Assembly (NCBI GenBank): GCA_944386155.1
Contig: CALWZY010000002.1
Location: 1-44,639 of the forward strand
Direction of reading: 5' to 3'
Length of the DNA stretch: 44,639 nt
DNA from: an uncultured Clostridia bacterium
Lineage (GTDB): Bacteria; Bacillota; Clostridia; TANB77; CAG-508
In this document: one piece after another, positions 3,281 to 27,601 of the stretch
Layout of the letters: every line of letters starts with the position of its first letter
Position numbering within the stretch: position 1 is the first letter of the stretch
Translations under genes and position numbers: made by a program
The notes under the pieces: generated by a model
The model's input: only the letters and a program-made list of their open reading frames with translations
Told to the model about the DNA's origin: nothing
Databases searched by the model: none

Positions 3281-3320
3281 AAAAACAAAAAGAGCTATTC
3301 ATCTATAGGACGAATAGCTC
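3281..3320 (-). terminator. T-box-controlled intrinsic terminator
   Basis: On the minus strand GAGCTATTC and GAATAGCTC form a 9-bp stem followed by a run of T. It competes with the T-box antiterminator. Confidence 0.9.
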
Positions 3321-3620
3321 GTGGTACCACCTAAATTAATAATATTAATCTTATGCTATAAATAAATACATATAATATAATATATTTTGAAATAAATTCA
3401 TTATATTAAGATCAAATATTATTCACTCTAAATCCTGTAACATAGAATCACTCGTCTTTAATTACTAAAAAATATTCTATATTTTCTTTTCACTAAAGCA
3501 ATTCAAAGGTGATAATAAATACTATACTTATTCTACTGGATTTTCAGCTACCTCCAGCTCTCTTATTAGACTTTTTAGTATTTATCTTGTCCTTATCAAA
3601 ATCTTTTACAAATATATTTG
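3281..3620 (-). promoter_or_regulatory. T-box leader, Ile (AUC) specifier, for the proX-like/ileS operon
   Basis: On the minus strand a Stem I is followed by the conserved T-box AGGTGGTACCACG (3320-3332), which can pair in an antiterminator. It overlaps the 5' arm of a terminator hairpin. The lower Stem I strands AAGG/CCTT and ATAAATACTA/TAGTATTTAT bracket an internal loop whose 3' side carries ATC followed by A (3511-3513 on the plus strand reads GAT). This matches specifier codon AUC for Ile and agrees with ileS downstream. Confidence 0.93.
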
Positions 3621-3669: not shown

Positions 3670-3698
3670 TTGATTTTTTTGCAAAAAAATGTTATAAT
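3670..3698 (+). promoter_or_regulatory. Promoter of small cassette gene A
   Basis: TTGATT (3670-3675), 17 bases, TATAAT (3693-3698). The bases just after the -10 (CTATAGTTCCA) resemble those after the -10 of cassette C (CTGTATTCCA at 27276), which suggests related transcription starts. Confidence 0.75.
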
Positions 3699-3751
3699 TA
3701 CTATAGTTCCAGCAATACCGCTGAACAATAAACGCAGAAAGGACGATCGAA

Positions 3752-4018
3752 ATGGCTAAGAAAAAAGTTTTTCGGGTAATAGGAGTGTTTAAGGCAGAGG
3801 AAACGATGCCTGTGATGCTTAAGGTGGCAGATCATGCCCCGAGCAAAGACACGATTCGTCTCATGATGGGGCTTCGCATTCAGGATCGGAAGAAGAAGAT
3901 TCCGTACGAAGAGTGCGCGCTCCGCAGGATTCAGATCGACTTCCGGAACGAGGAGGCGGCTCGCGAGTGCCGAGAGGCACTGAAACCCTTCCTCGTCAAG
4001 GACAGTAGCGATTTCTAA
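3752..4018 (+). CDS. Small protein of unknown function in a foreign G+C-rich cassette (A)
   Basis: An 88-residue basic, soluble protein with no signal peptide or membrane segment. I do not recognise the family. AGAAAGGACG provides the ribosome site. Base and codon use are strongly unlike the neighbours: G+C is about half by eye, and Arg uses CGG, CGC, CGT, CGA and AGG, while native genes use mostly AGA. It contains three in-frame CGG codons (3773-3775, 3887-3889, 3944-3946), a codon otherwise absent as sense in this window. It has its own promoter and a strong terminator and lies alone between divergent or unrelated host genes, as expected of an independently acquired unit. If CGG shifted frame here, the first site would lead at once to GGG TAA, truncating the protein. 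Confidence 0.85.
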   Translation: MAKKKVFRVIGVFKAEETMPVMLKVADHAPSKDTIRLMMGLRIQDRKKKIPYEECALRRIQIDFRNEEAARECREALKPFLVKDSSDF

Positions 4019-4044
4019 GGGCTAACCCCCGAAAGACATCGTCC

Positions 4045-4084
4045 CCTCGCACTGGCTCATGCCGGTGCGAGGCTTCTTTTTTTT
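4045..4084 (+). terminator. Terminator of cassette A
   Basis: CCTCGCAC/GTGCGAGG stem extended by GGC/GCC, then a long T run. Its G+C content matches the cassette gene, not the host. Confidence 0.92.
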
Positions 4085-4158
4085 ACTTAATTTACTTATT
4101 TTATTTACATTATTTAAATATATAATTAATTATTTTGTTCTGTTATAAGTACATTTAA

Positions 4159-4240: not shown

Positions 4241-4268
4241 AAAAAGACATAGCTTGCTATGTCTTTTT
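4241..4268 (-). terminator. Terminator after hup (bidirectional)
   Basis: AAAAGACATAG/CTATGTCTTTT with a 4-base loop. It has A and T runs on both sides, so it can stop both hup and readthrough from cassette A. An AT palindrome TATATGAATTCATATA follows at 4267-4282. Confidence 0.85.
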
Positions 4269-4301: not shown

Positions 4302-4580
4302 TTATTTTTTATTTACTAAATCTTTTAATGCTTTACCAGCTTTGAATACTGGAGCTTTTGATGCAGGTATTTTAATTTCTTCTTTAGTTTGTGGATTTCT
4401 TCCTTTTCTAGCTGCTCTTTTTCTAACTTCAAAAGAACCAAATCCAACTAATTGAACTTTGTCTCCTTTTGCTAATGCTTCTGTAACAACATCTACGAAA
4501 GAATTGATTGTTGCTTCAGCATTTTTCTTTGTTTCTCCTGTTTGTGCAGCTACTGCTGCGATTAATTCAGCTTTGTTCAT
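4302..4580 (-). CDS. hup: HU-type nucleoid DNA-binding protein
   Basis: A 92-residue histone-like protein that bends and compacts DNA as a dimer. The N-terminal helices ([11 protein letters not shown]) and the beta-arm region [20 protein letters not shown] are typical, and the length is exactly that of the family. AGGAGG lies just upstream of ATG 4580. A 6-bp inverted repeat (TGTAGA/TCTACA, 4617-4635) lies in the leader and could be structural or regulatory. Confidence 0.98.
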
Positions 4581-6737: not shown

Positions 6738-9137
6738 ATGATTACTTGGATAACTAGTTTCTTTTGGAAATATGTTGATAAATTTTTAAAAATAATAAAA
6801 ACTGATAGAAATACTTTTTTTACATATGTACTGACGCTCATTTCTTTTTATTTATGTATAGATAGAATTGTTGAAGTATTATTTATGTGCTTTACAGGTA
6901 TTTCAGTAGACTATTGGGGTCCTTTTACTTATACATTTGCATTAGCTTGTCCTGTATTTGCATTTCTATTTTCAGGAGGCTCTAAATTTGCATCTGATGA
7001 TGGTAAAAAATTCTCATTGTTTTCAATGTATTGTATAGCACTTTATATAATTGGTATTTCAATGTTAGTTCAGTGGCTTAACAAATTATGTTGGATATTA
7101 TTATTCTCTGTTCCAAATTACAACGGAATAGTAATGAATTTTATGGATTTGATAAGACCAGCATTTACAGCTCTTGCATGTTATGTTCCACTTATGACAT
7201 TTTATCCATTCTTCAAAAAGATGTATACAAGCTTTGCTGATACAAAAGATATCAGAGATTCTATTGCAGATTATAATGGTATAGATTTATCTGACACAAA
7301 AGAAGGATGGGGACCATATACATGCGAAATGTTCATATGTAAAGATGGTGAGACTGGTAAAACTATAAAAATACCTGAATGTAGAAGGTTTGAGTCAACA
7401 CTTATTGTTGGTACTTCAGGTTCCGGAAAAACTACAATGGCATTTGAACCAATGATTGCAAGAGATATTGAAAGAAAATATTTCTTAAGAGAAAGTTCAA
7501 AAGAACTTGGATTTACAGCATTAAGGACAGGGCTTGCAACTGTTGCAAAACCATATACTAATGATTATATGAACACAAATTTTTCATTAAATATGCTTAC
7601 TGTTTCTCCTGGAAAAGAAAAACTTTTTAATGCATATTTGAAAAATCTTGTATACTTTTCTTCTGGAACAAAAACTATATACAAAAATTTAGGTATAACA
7701 TATGTTGCACCAGATTTTGAATCTGTTTCACACATTATGGAAGTATTAGATAATTATGGTATGAGATACAATTTAGTAGATCCAGCAGATGAAAATTCAG
7801 TTGGTCTTAACCCATTTGTATTCACTGATCCTGTAAAAACTGCTTTAGCAATTTCAGCTGTATTAAAAAGAATGTATGAAACAAATAATGTAACACCAGA
7901 AGAAGCATTTATGCAAAATATAACTGCTCAAGCTATTGAGAACTTATCATTATTATTAAAAGAAATATATCCTGCATTAAATGAAGGAGCTCTTCCAAAT
8001 TTAGAAGATTTACTTAGAATGTTAAATAACTTTGATTTAGTTGAAGGTTTCTGTGAAGAATTAAAGAAAACTCCAGAACTAGCAGAAAAATATGCTATAC
8101 TTTTAACATACTTTAAAAATAACTTTTATAAAGATTCTCGTGGTAGACAAGATACTGAAAAAGCTCTTCAAGCAGCAAGTTCACAACTTGAAAATTTATT
8201 AAGATTTCCTGGTGTAAGAAATATCTTATGTAATAGAACAAATAATATAAATTTTGATAAAGCTTTAGAAAATGGTGAAATTACTCTTATATGTACAAGA
8301 CGTGGTGACTTAGGATCTGCTGTAAATAAAGCATTTGGTTTATTTACATTATTACTAATGCAACATTCAGTAATATCAAGACCTGGTAATGAAAAAACTA
8401 GAATTCCACATTTCTTATATATAGATGAATTTCCTCCATTTGTATGTAAAGCAACTGAAGATTTCTTTACTCTATTTAGAAAATATAGAGTTGGATTAAT
8501 TATATCTGCTCAGAACTTATCACAATTTGGTACAGAAAATGGTGAAAATTATAGACAAACTATTTTAGCTAACTGTACTACAAAAATTGTTTTCGGTAAT
8601 AATACACCTGAAGATAATAAATGGTGGGAAGAAGAATTTGGAGATAAAAGAGAGTGGCAATTTAGTAATACTTATAATACAGATACAATGGAATATGATG
8701 CAAAATATGGTAGCATCAAATGGGCTTGGACAAAAAACTTCAAAGCTGGAAAAGTTCAGTCACAAAAGTTTAAAGCTATTATTTATAAAACAAGAGATAT
8801 TAAAGGAAAAATGCTTGTTGGTAAAGGAAAATTAGATTTTCTAGAATCAAAATATAAAGAAAAACATCCAACAAAAGTTTATAACTTTATAAAATATACA
8901 TCTAACGCTATTCAAGGAGACCAAATAGAAGAACAAAAAGATTCAGTTACATTTAGCGGAAAATTAAAATCTTTCTTAAATCCAAAATTTATCCCTGGTG
9001 AATTTGATGAAAATGATCCTATTCAATATAATACAACAGATATGAAATACTTCTTTGAAAATGATGATGCAATAAGCTTTAATTTATCAAATGATAATAA
9101 TCAAAATAGCGAAGATGAAAATAACAATAATGTTTAG
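6738..9137 (+). CDS. VirD4/TraG-like type IV coupling ATPase
   Basis: A 799-residue membrane-anchored AAA/FtsK-type ATPase. Hydrophobic segments lie at about residues 28-50, 62-80, 95-112 and 135-158. Walker A GTSGSGKTT is at 225-233, Walker B LYIDEF is near 559-564, and a sensor-like ISAQNLSQF follows near 589. These are the marks of T4SS coupling proteins (T4CP, TraG/VirD4/TcpA-like), which recruit relaxase-DNA or protein substrates to a secretion channel. The acidic, Asn-rich C-tail is typical of substrate-contacting tails. No relaxase, VirB4 or pilus gene is next to it, so it is either a remnant of an integrative element or an orphan coupling ATPase. A replication-relaxation-like protein is encoded convergently nearby. 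No in-frame CGG was found. Confidence 0.85.
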   Translation: MITWITSFFWKYVDKFLKIIKTDRNTFFTYVLTLISFYLCIDRIVEVLFMCFTGISVDYWGPFTYTFALACPVFAFLFSGGSKFASDDGKKFSLFSMYCIALYIIGISMLVQWLNKLCWILLFSVPNYNGIVMNFMDLIRPAFTALACYVPLMTFYPFFKKMYTSFADTKDIRDSIADYNGIDLSDTKEGWGPYTCEMFICKDGETGKTIKIPECRRFESTLIVGTSGSGKTTMAFEPMIARDIERKYFLRESSKELGFTALRTGLATVAKPYTNDYMNTNFSLNMLTVSPGKEKLFNAYLKNLVYFSSGTKTIYKNLGITYVAPDFESVSHIMEVLDNYGMRYNLVDPADENSVGLNPFVFTDPVKTALAISAVLKRMYETNNVTPEEAFMQNITAQAIENLSLLLKEIYPALNEGALPNLEDLLRMLNNFDLVEGFCEELKKTPELAEKYAILLTYFKNNFYKDSRGRQDTEKALQAASSQLENLLRFPGVRNILCNRTNNINFDKALENGEITLICTRRGDLGSAVNKAFGLFTLLLMQHSVISRPGNEKTRIPHFLYIDEFPPFVCKATEDFFTLFRKYRVGLIISAQNLSQFGTENGENYRQTILANCTTKIVFGNNTPEDNKWWEEEFGDKREWQFSNTYNTDTMEYDAKYGSIKWAWTKNFKAGKVQSQKFKAIIYKTRDIKGKMLVGKGKLDFLESKYKEKHPTKVYNFIKYTSNAIQGDQIEEQKDSVTFSGKLKSFLNPKFIPGEFDENDPIQYNTTDMKYFFENDDAISFNLSNDNNQNSEDENNNNV

Positions 9138-26916: not shown

Positions 26917-27138
26917 TTAATAGTCCAAAAACCAATCAGGACGCTTGAATTTATCCGGCTTTACGATAAAATCCAGGAGCGTCATGAGACATGCAAGCTC
27001 GAACATTCCGGGCTCATCAGCGTCTGACTCAAAGTCGAGCAATCTCTGCTCTTCAATCTTCATCCGCTTCGCAAGTGCCTCTGTGCTCACTCCCTTTTTC
27101 ACTCTTGCCGTTTTGATCTGCTGTCCTAATGTTGCCAT
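26917..27138 (-). CDS. Small XRE/Cro-like helix-turn-helix protein in foreign cassette B
   Basis: 73 residues. Residues 5-60 follow the Cro/CI HTH plan (LGQQIKTARVKKGVSTEALAKRM, then EEQRLLDFESD), followed by an alpha-helical end and a DWFLDY tail. A small DNA-binding repressor is the best reading. Codon use is foreign and includes CGG (27064-27066) read as Arg within the HTH. +1 shifting there would hit TGA at once. AGGAGG precedes the ATG. It has its own perfect promoter, two inverted repeats in the leader and its own terminator, so autoregulation is likely. It is divergent from cassette C. Confidence 0.85.
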   Translation of the reverse strand: MATLGQQIKTARVKKGVSTEALAKRMKIEEQRLLDFESDADEPGMFELACLMTLLDFIVKPDKFKRPDWFLDY

Positions 27139-27361: not shown

Positions 27362-27601
27362 ATGTGTAGCGATATGCCTGATGGGGTATTTACCGATACT
27401 ATCAAAAGCATAAAGAAAATTGGTAGTCTTGGTGAACTTGAAAGCTCAGAGATCATTCTTGATCTTGCTAGATTCGGCACATATAGTTTCGACTATTTTT
27501 GCCACTGGCAATACGAAGATTTCTGGCTAAATGCCCATCTTGGGTCAAGAGTTAAGGTAAGCATATCTAGCGGTCACATCAGCCAGATTCAGCTTATCTA
27601 G
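27362..27601 (+). CDS. Small protein of unknown function in foreign cassette C
   Basis: 79 residues, soluble, aromatic-rich middle (FGTYSFDYFCHWQYEDFWLNAH). Family not recognised. AGAAAGGAGGTG is the ribosome site, similar to AGAAAGGACG of cassette A. G+C is above the neighbours. No in-frame CGG. It carries its own promoter and terminator. Back-to-back with the HTH gene, so it could be its target or a two-gene module, but nothing shows this directly. Confidence 0.8.
   Translation: MCSDMPDGVFTDTIKSIKKIGSLGELESSEIILDLARFGTYSFDYFCHWQYEDFWLNAHLGSRVKVSISSGHISQIQLI

Follow-up and report, generated by a model that had tools for sequence, protein, structure and literature searches.

A G+C-rich single-gene unit long resident at one chromosomal site in a genus of A+T-rich uncultured Clostridia

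Odd base composition in a gene is routinely taken as a sign of recent transfer. Does that reading hold for a small G+C-rich unit lying between housekeeping operons of an A+T-rich, uncultured Clostridia bacterium, which had been proposed from the sequence alone to be a recent foreign import? The window analyzed is the entire contig C2 (44,639 bases) of a metagenome-assembled genome (G000; 1.46 Mb in 110 contigs). Across a 445-kb sample of this genome, GC content is 26.6% and host ORFs have a GC3 of about 0.11 (median 0.11-0.13 in the sample). The unit and its immediate neighbors comprise the following features.

3670-4085, forward strand: whole unit, promoter to terminator
3670-3698, forward strand: sigma-70-type promoter with extended -10 (TTGATT, 17 bases, TATAAT, with TGT before the -10); 10 of 12 consensus matches
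3706-3726, forward strand: 5' stem-loop of the transcript (GTTCCAGC AATACC GCTGAAC); z -3.4
3736-3743, forward strand: ribosome-binding site AGAAAGGA, read from the sequence
3752-4018, forward strand: ORF A, 88 amino acids (aa), a basic, genus-restricted protein with a predicted ferredoxin-like alpha/beta-plait
4045-4085, forward strand: strong G+C-rich intrinsic terminator with T-tract (stem 4045-4072, 12 pairs, 9 of them G-C)
3303-3608, reverse strand: left neighbor, T-box leader of the divergent ybaK-ileS unit (RF00230, 54 bits, E 7.7e-11)
4302-4580, reverse strand: right neighbor, convergent gene for an HU-type DNA-binding protein, with its own terminator at 4241-4268

At the sequence level, the original prediction of a compact unit holding promoter, ribosome site, 88-codon gene and strong terminator was confirmed (3670-4085). 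Its composition is indeed far from that of its surroundings, ORF A having a GC of 0.52 and a GC3 of 0.64 against 23-29% GC in the flanking 400-base windows. On one side of the unit lies the promoter of the divergent ybaK-ileS unit, on the other the terminator belonging to the convergent HU gene. As had been claimed, the host genes of ybaK-ileS and HU-murJ are undisrupted. Neither direct repeats nor an integrase were noticed at its edges on reading the sequence. The score of the T-box leader is under the Rfam gathering score of 93. Adjoining murJ, a 799-aa ORF at 6738-9137 of the window resembles, by eye, a conjugation coupling protein of the VirD4/TraG type.

Promoter-like sites are frequent in the AT-rich DNA here (15 found versus 11.4 expected); the element at 3670-3698 counts as a promoter only because its position is kept in relatives. 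It is found at the matching place in the nearest relative, G012, and in G007, G011 and G004, is weaker in G010 and G008, and is lost in G009. The idea that the promoter signature represents a promoter cassette shared genome-wide was rejected, as it occurs in a single copy in the genome. Terminators as strong as that at 4045-4085 number three in the region, versus 0.9 expected. The stem-loop at 3706-3726, between the -10 and the ribosome site, had not been part of the original prediction. Seven of the eight ORF A units identified below have a hairpin in this position, with z values of -3.4 to -4.6 in six members and -1.0 in G007; the region is lost in G009. Stem sequences vary by lineage (TTCAGC, CAGACG, CTGAACA, GTTGAACGC). 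As a control, 28 host leaders average a z of -0.28, with 14% below -1.5.

The cassette site was readable in 12 genomes of the genus; G013, whose contig stops inside HU, and G006, where HU was not found, were excluded. ORF A homologues with 20-89% identity occupy the same ileS-ybaK / HU-murJ site in seven other genomes, that is, in eight of the 12 with G000 included. Identity to ORF A is 89% in G012, 38% in G007 and 36-38% in G009, with weaker matches (20-29%) in G010, G008, G011 and G004; only one flank is visible in G010 and G008, where the contig ends. Carriers belong to both deep clades of the genus in a tree of ileS, MurJ and HU, and a profile of eight rows finds all eight carrier genomes at E 6e-22 to 3e-34. 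The reading frame is open at similar length in all seven complete members and, in G008, to the contig end. Flanked by ybaK-ileS and the HU gene at a single fixed position, the unit has long resided in the genus, and matching units in independently assembled relatives exclude an assembly join.

Site comparison also bore out presence and absence among close relatives: the site contains no ORF in G002 and a short inverted-repeat element in G001. The unit is dispensable, being lost or replaced in some lineages. In the G001 element, which lies between ileS and HU, GTCAAATGGGACGGAGGATTTTGACA and its complement form long inverted repeats. In G003 and G005 the site is taken up by unrelated, similarly packaged ORFs of 119 and 133 aa; these were considered as diverged ORF A homologues and rejected, showing no profile similarity, nor BLAST similarity to each other. 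Their leaders, as well as that of unit B described below, contain hairpins too (z -1.9 to -4.0). At positions 680-1090 of the G009 locus, ybaK is decayed, TTTTTGATT-type repeats stand in place of the cassette promoter, and the ORF is open yet A+T-rich. In four of 13 genomes, contigs end inside the cassette site or no more than a few hundred bases away from it, versus 0.43 to 0.86 expected (G012, end of C19 and start of C2; G008, end of C15; G010, start of C42; G013, end of C69, inside HU), and the two G012 contigs have about 80 bases of ORF end and terminator in common. Strain polymorphism is a possible cause of this clustering.

Searches beyond the genus covered samples drawn from the order, the family and the phylum (about 390 genomes in each), as well as plasmids, phages and viral contigs. 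None of these yielded a homologue, and the distant copies of the cassette that recent import would have led one to look for were not found in them. With the eight-row profile, the phylum sample gave no match at E ≤0.01; in the family sample five other members matched at this threshold, and the two of them that were checked both overlap ordinary genes. Weak matches in other genera (G175, G705, G017 and others) were discarded; the two checked were those in G175 and G017, both over ordinary genes.

The protein belongs to no recognizable family, as the original prediction had stated: Pfam and NCBIfam profile searches gave no match even at E 10, and a search of PDB sequences none better than E 0.3. 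PADLOC, which covers known anti-phage defense systems, had no match for any of the eight members at E 10. Against PHROG, ORF A gives a weak match only, to phrog_1474 (unknown function; E 0.0035), a profile matched by two of the eight members (best E 2.2e-4). A phage link through phrog_1474 was rejected, the match being weak and the profile also scoring pieces of HisRS and a transposase-like ORF. The AlphaFold model of ORF A, based on a three-sequence alignment, has the element order E7-14 H15-28 E34-40 H43-47 E57-64 H67-80 E81-84 (pLDDT 86.7). That of the G007 homologue (38% identical; pLDDT 81.2) has the same order minus the last strand and a low-confidence beta2-beta3 loop; since both alignments contain the same three sequences, the second model is not independent of the first. 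Structural matches are to dimeric ferredoxin-like plait proteins (E 9e-4), and the VIA matches, among those listed, include SbtB/PII, ACT and NikR C-terminal domains, where Z reaches 9.0 across 73 residues. Z values of 7.5-9.0 are obtained for many unrelated plait families and are near the level of models without true relatives; the predicted plait fold is very common and uninformative on function. All eight members are basic (pI 9.1-10.3), and the beta2-beta3 loop is rich in lysine and arginine in every one.

Between G000 and G012, ORF A has a dN of 0.063 and a dS of 0.193 (dN/dS about 0.33), and is thus under purifying selection; neighboring dS values are 0.18-0.21 for ileS and 0.21 for ybaK. 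Identity at fourfold sites is 0.88 in ORF A and 0.84 in ileS (P = 0.80). As dS and fourfold identity of ORF A are like those of ileS, the gene was inherited with its neighbors in this pair, and vertical keeping of the unit holds at least over the G000/G012 split. ORF A is therefore coding, given the purifying selection between the two closest genomes, and it is fast-evolving. The same site and co-divergence with the flanks, expected of a vertically inherited genus-restricted gene, are found for G000/G012, while deeper pairs are ambiguous. Vertical conservation and host-like codon use had been named together as what would count against a foreign origin: the former is found in relatives, the latter is not.

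In G007 and G009, ORF A is 35-38% identical and ileS 94%; fourfold sites are identical at 4 of 9 positions in ORF A versus 221 of 272 in ileS. Excess silent divergence over ileS appears in three deeper pairs (G007/G009, P = 0.018; G000/G007, P = 0.022; G011/G004, P = 0.005), in tests that use 9-12 sites each, on non-independent pairs, with counts lowered by protein divergence; it is a hint, not proof, of allele replacement. GC3 of ORF A is 0.60-0.76 in G000, G012, G010, G008, G011 and G004, 0.40 in G007 and 0.21 in G009, where the -10 is missing too. High GC3 in branches whose proteins are only 20-30% identical runs contrary to plain descent under A+T-biased mutation and is a real puzzle.

This A+T-rich genome contains other G+C-rich genes that form a set with ORF A, most of them orphans and typically organized as single-gene units. 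Of the 367 ORFs with 60 aa or more in the 445-kb sample, 14 have a GC3 of at least 0.38, clearly apart from the others, the count being approximate in that one listed ORF (17820, G000:C6) overlaps an opposite-strand ORF. Twelve of the G+C-rich genes were inspected: a stable hairpin of about -15 to -35 kcal/mol lies downstream of every one, and an apparent -10 is present in most. Pfam gave a clear match for only one of ten (NUDIX). All 11 checkable genes, meaning those whose flanks fall within sampled G012 DNA, have a homologue at the same place in G012, again G+C-rich; here, odd composition is a mark of genes that have kept their position. In nine of the genes, silent differences between G000 and G012 have no consistent direction (unpolarized, without an outgroup). 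Such genes number in the dozens, and a literature search for a gene class of this kind found none. Four or five G+C-rich, mostly orphan genes lie within about 11 kb at G000:C6 8769-19278, all at the same place in G012. Two further units are located in the window, between asnS and pheT.

26917-27138, reverse strand: unit B, HTH-like protein of 73 aa; two hairpins in the leader, terminator G+C-rich
27362-27601, forward strand: unit C, orphan of 79 aa; promoter and terminator of its own

In the second leader hairpin of unit B, the stem sequence differs in G012 and the pairing is kept. Unit C is syntenic in G011 too and has homologues in G010 and G008. Between G000 and G012, dS of units B and C is near 2 versus 0.42-0.47 for their neighbors. 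Allele swapping of both units was considered and rejected, as their fourfold identities (0.62 and 0.53 versus 0.65 and 0.73) point mostly to a composition effect.

How such a unit came to be kept can be read in several ways. The recent arrival of a G+C-rich expression cassette by horizontal transfer would account for the alien composition and compactness, and for absence or replacement in some relatives. It is largely refuted by the same-site occurrence in both genus clades (eight of 12 readable genomes), a silent divergence equal to that of ileS, and searches that found no relatives outside the genus; we consider it very unlikely. That the product is a structured RNA, regulatory or antisense, with the ORF incidental, is scarcely credible: the leader hairpin and strong terminator would fit, as would the match of the 3' part to an Rfam plasmid antisense RNA, weak and below threshold (E 0.097), but the frame is conserved in length, dN/dS is about 0.33 and the predicted fold is coherent.

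A more serious contender, if still an unlikely one, is exchange at a resident slot, in which the cassette is repeatedly swapped, through recombination in the conserved flanks, for other cassettes or diverged alleles out of a pool, and is kept G+C-rich by re-import. The unrelated, similarly packaged ORFs in G003 and G005, the excess of ORF A over host divergence in the three deeper pairs, the contig ends at the site and the high GC3 of deep branches all argue for it. Against it stand the G000/G012 pair, without excess silent divergence, the 11 comparable G+C-rich units all common to these two genomes, and the donor, not found in any search; moreover, the fourfold counts in its favor are tiny and non-independent. 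On balance, we lean towards the unit being a moron-like accessory gene, dispensable and passed on vertically, whose product would be a small basic binding protein with a putative biological role.

As such an accessory gene, the unit would rely on its own promoter for transcription, the 5' hairpin may protect the message or allow autoregulation by the basic protein, and the terminator would isolate the unit from its neighbors. The product would be a soluble protein, small and basic, that adopts a ferredoxin-like plait and whose lysine/arginine-rich beta2-beta3 loop may bind nucleic acid or a nucleotide in an accessory role. Conflicts with phages or other mobile DNA are the role we think most likely, because such a role is expected for a fast-evolving, dispensable gene, but we offer it as a tentative guess. 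The mode would be that of a chromosomal moron, an autonomous one-gene unit adding a function with its neighbors untouched. It is further conceivable, if rather doubtful, that several dozen single-gene units form a permanent set in the genus, each combining its own promoter and an orphan ORF with a G+C-rich terminator and often a 5' hairpin, and that their coding composition has stayed off equilibrium for the lifetime of the genus, by selection on their DNA or RNA or by continual slot exchange. Such a set would amount to a cassette system without a known recombinase. Were the fixed position of genes with odd composition a general pattern, the link between composition and recent import would be broken, and selection or slot-wise exchange would be indicated as what keeps their composition distinct.

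Among known systems, integron gene cassettes are likewise compact, carry one gene and are variable in content, but the present unit has its own promoter and stands single at its site, and no integrase or attC came to notice on reading the sequence. PII-like (SbtB), ACT and other small ferredoxin-like regulators have the beta-alpha-beta-beta-alpha-beta plait predicted for ORF A; the likeness is one of predicted fold alone, with 4-16% identity to PII-like (SbtB) and ACT proteins and no family profile match. Like taxonomically restricted (orphan) genes, ORF A is small and fast-evolving, with homologues confined to one genus; unlike typical ones, it is G+C-rich in an A+T-rich genome and has its own strong terminator and kept synteny. 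Phage morons are defined by their own promoter and terminator, a GC content unlike the surroundings and a position between phage or prophage genes (PMC2920897, PMC6316719). In contrast, the unit lies among housekeeping operons (ybaK-ileS, HU-murJ) of a bacterial chromosome, is kept at one site across the genus and has no homologues in the phage collections searched. It nevertheless has in common with phage morons a single gene with its own promoter and terminator (here read from sequence), a composition unlike its surroundings, harmlessness to neighbors, presence or absence in relatives, and varied occupants at one site.
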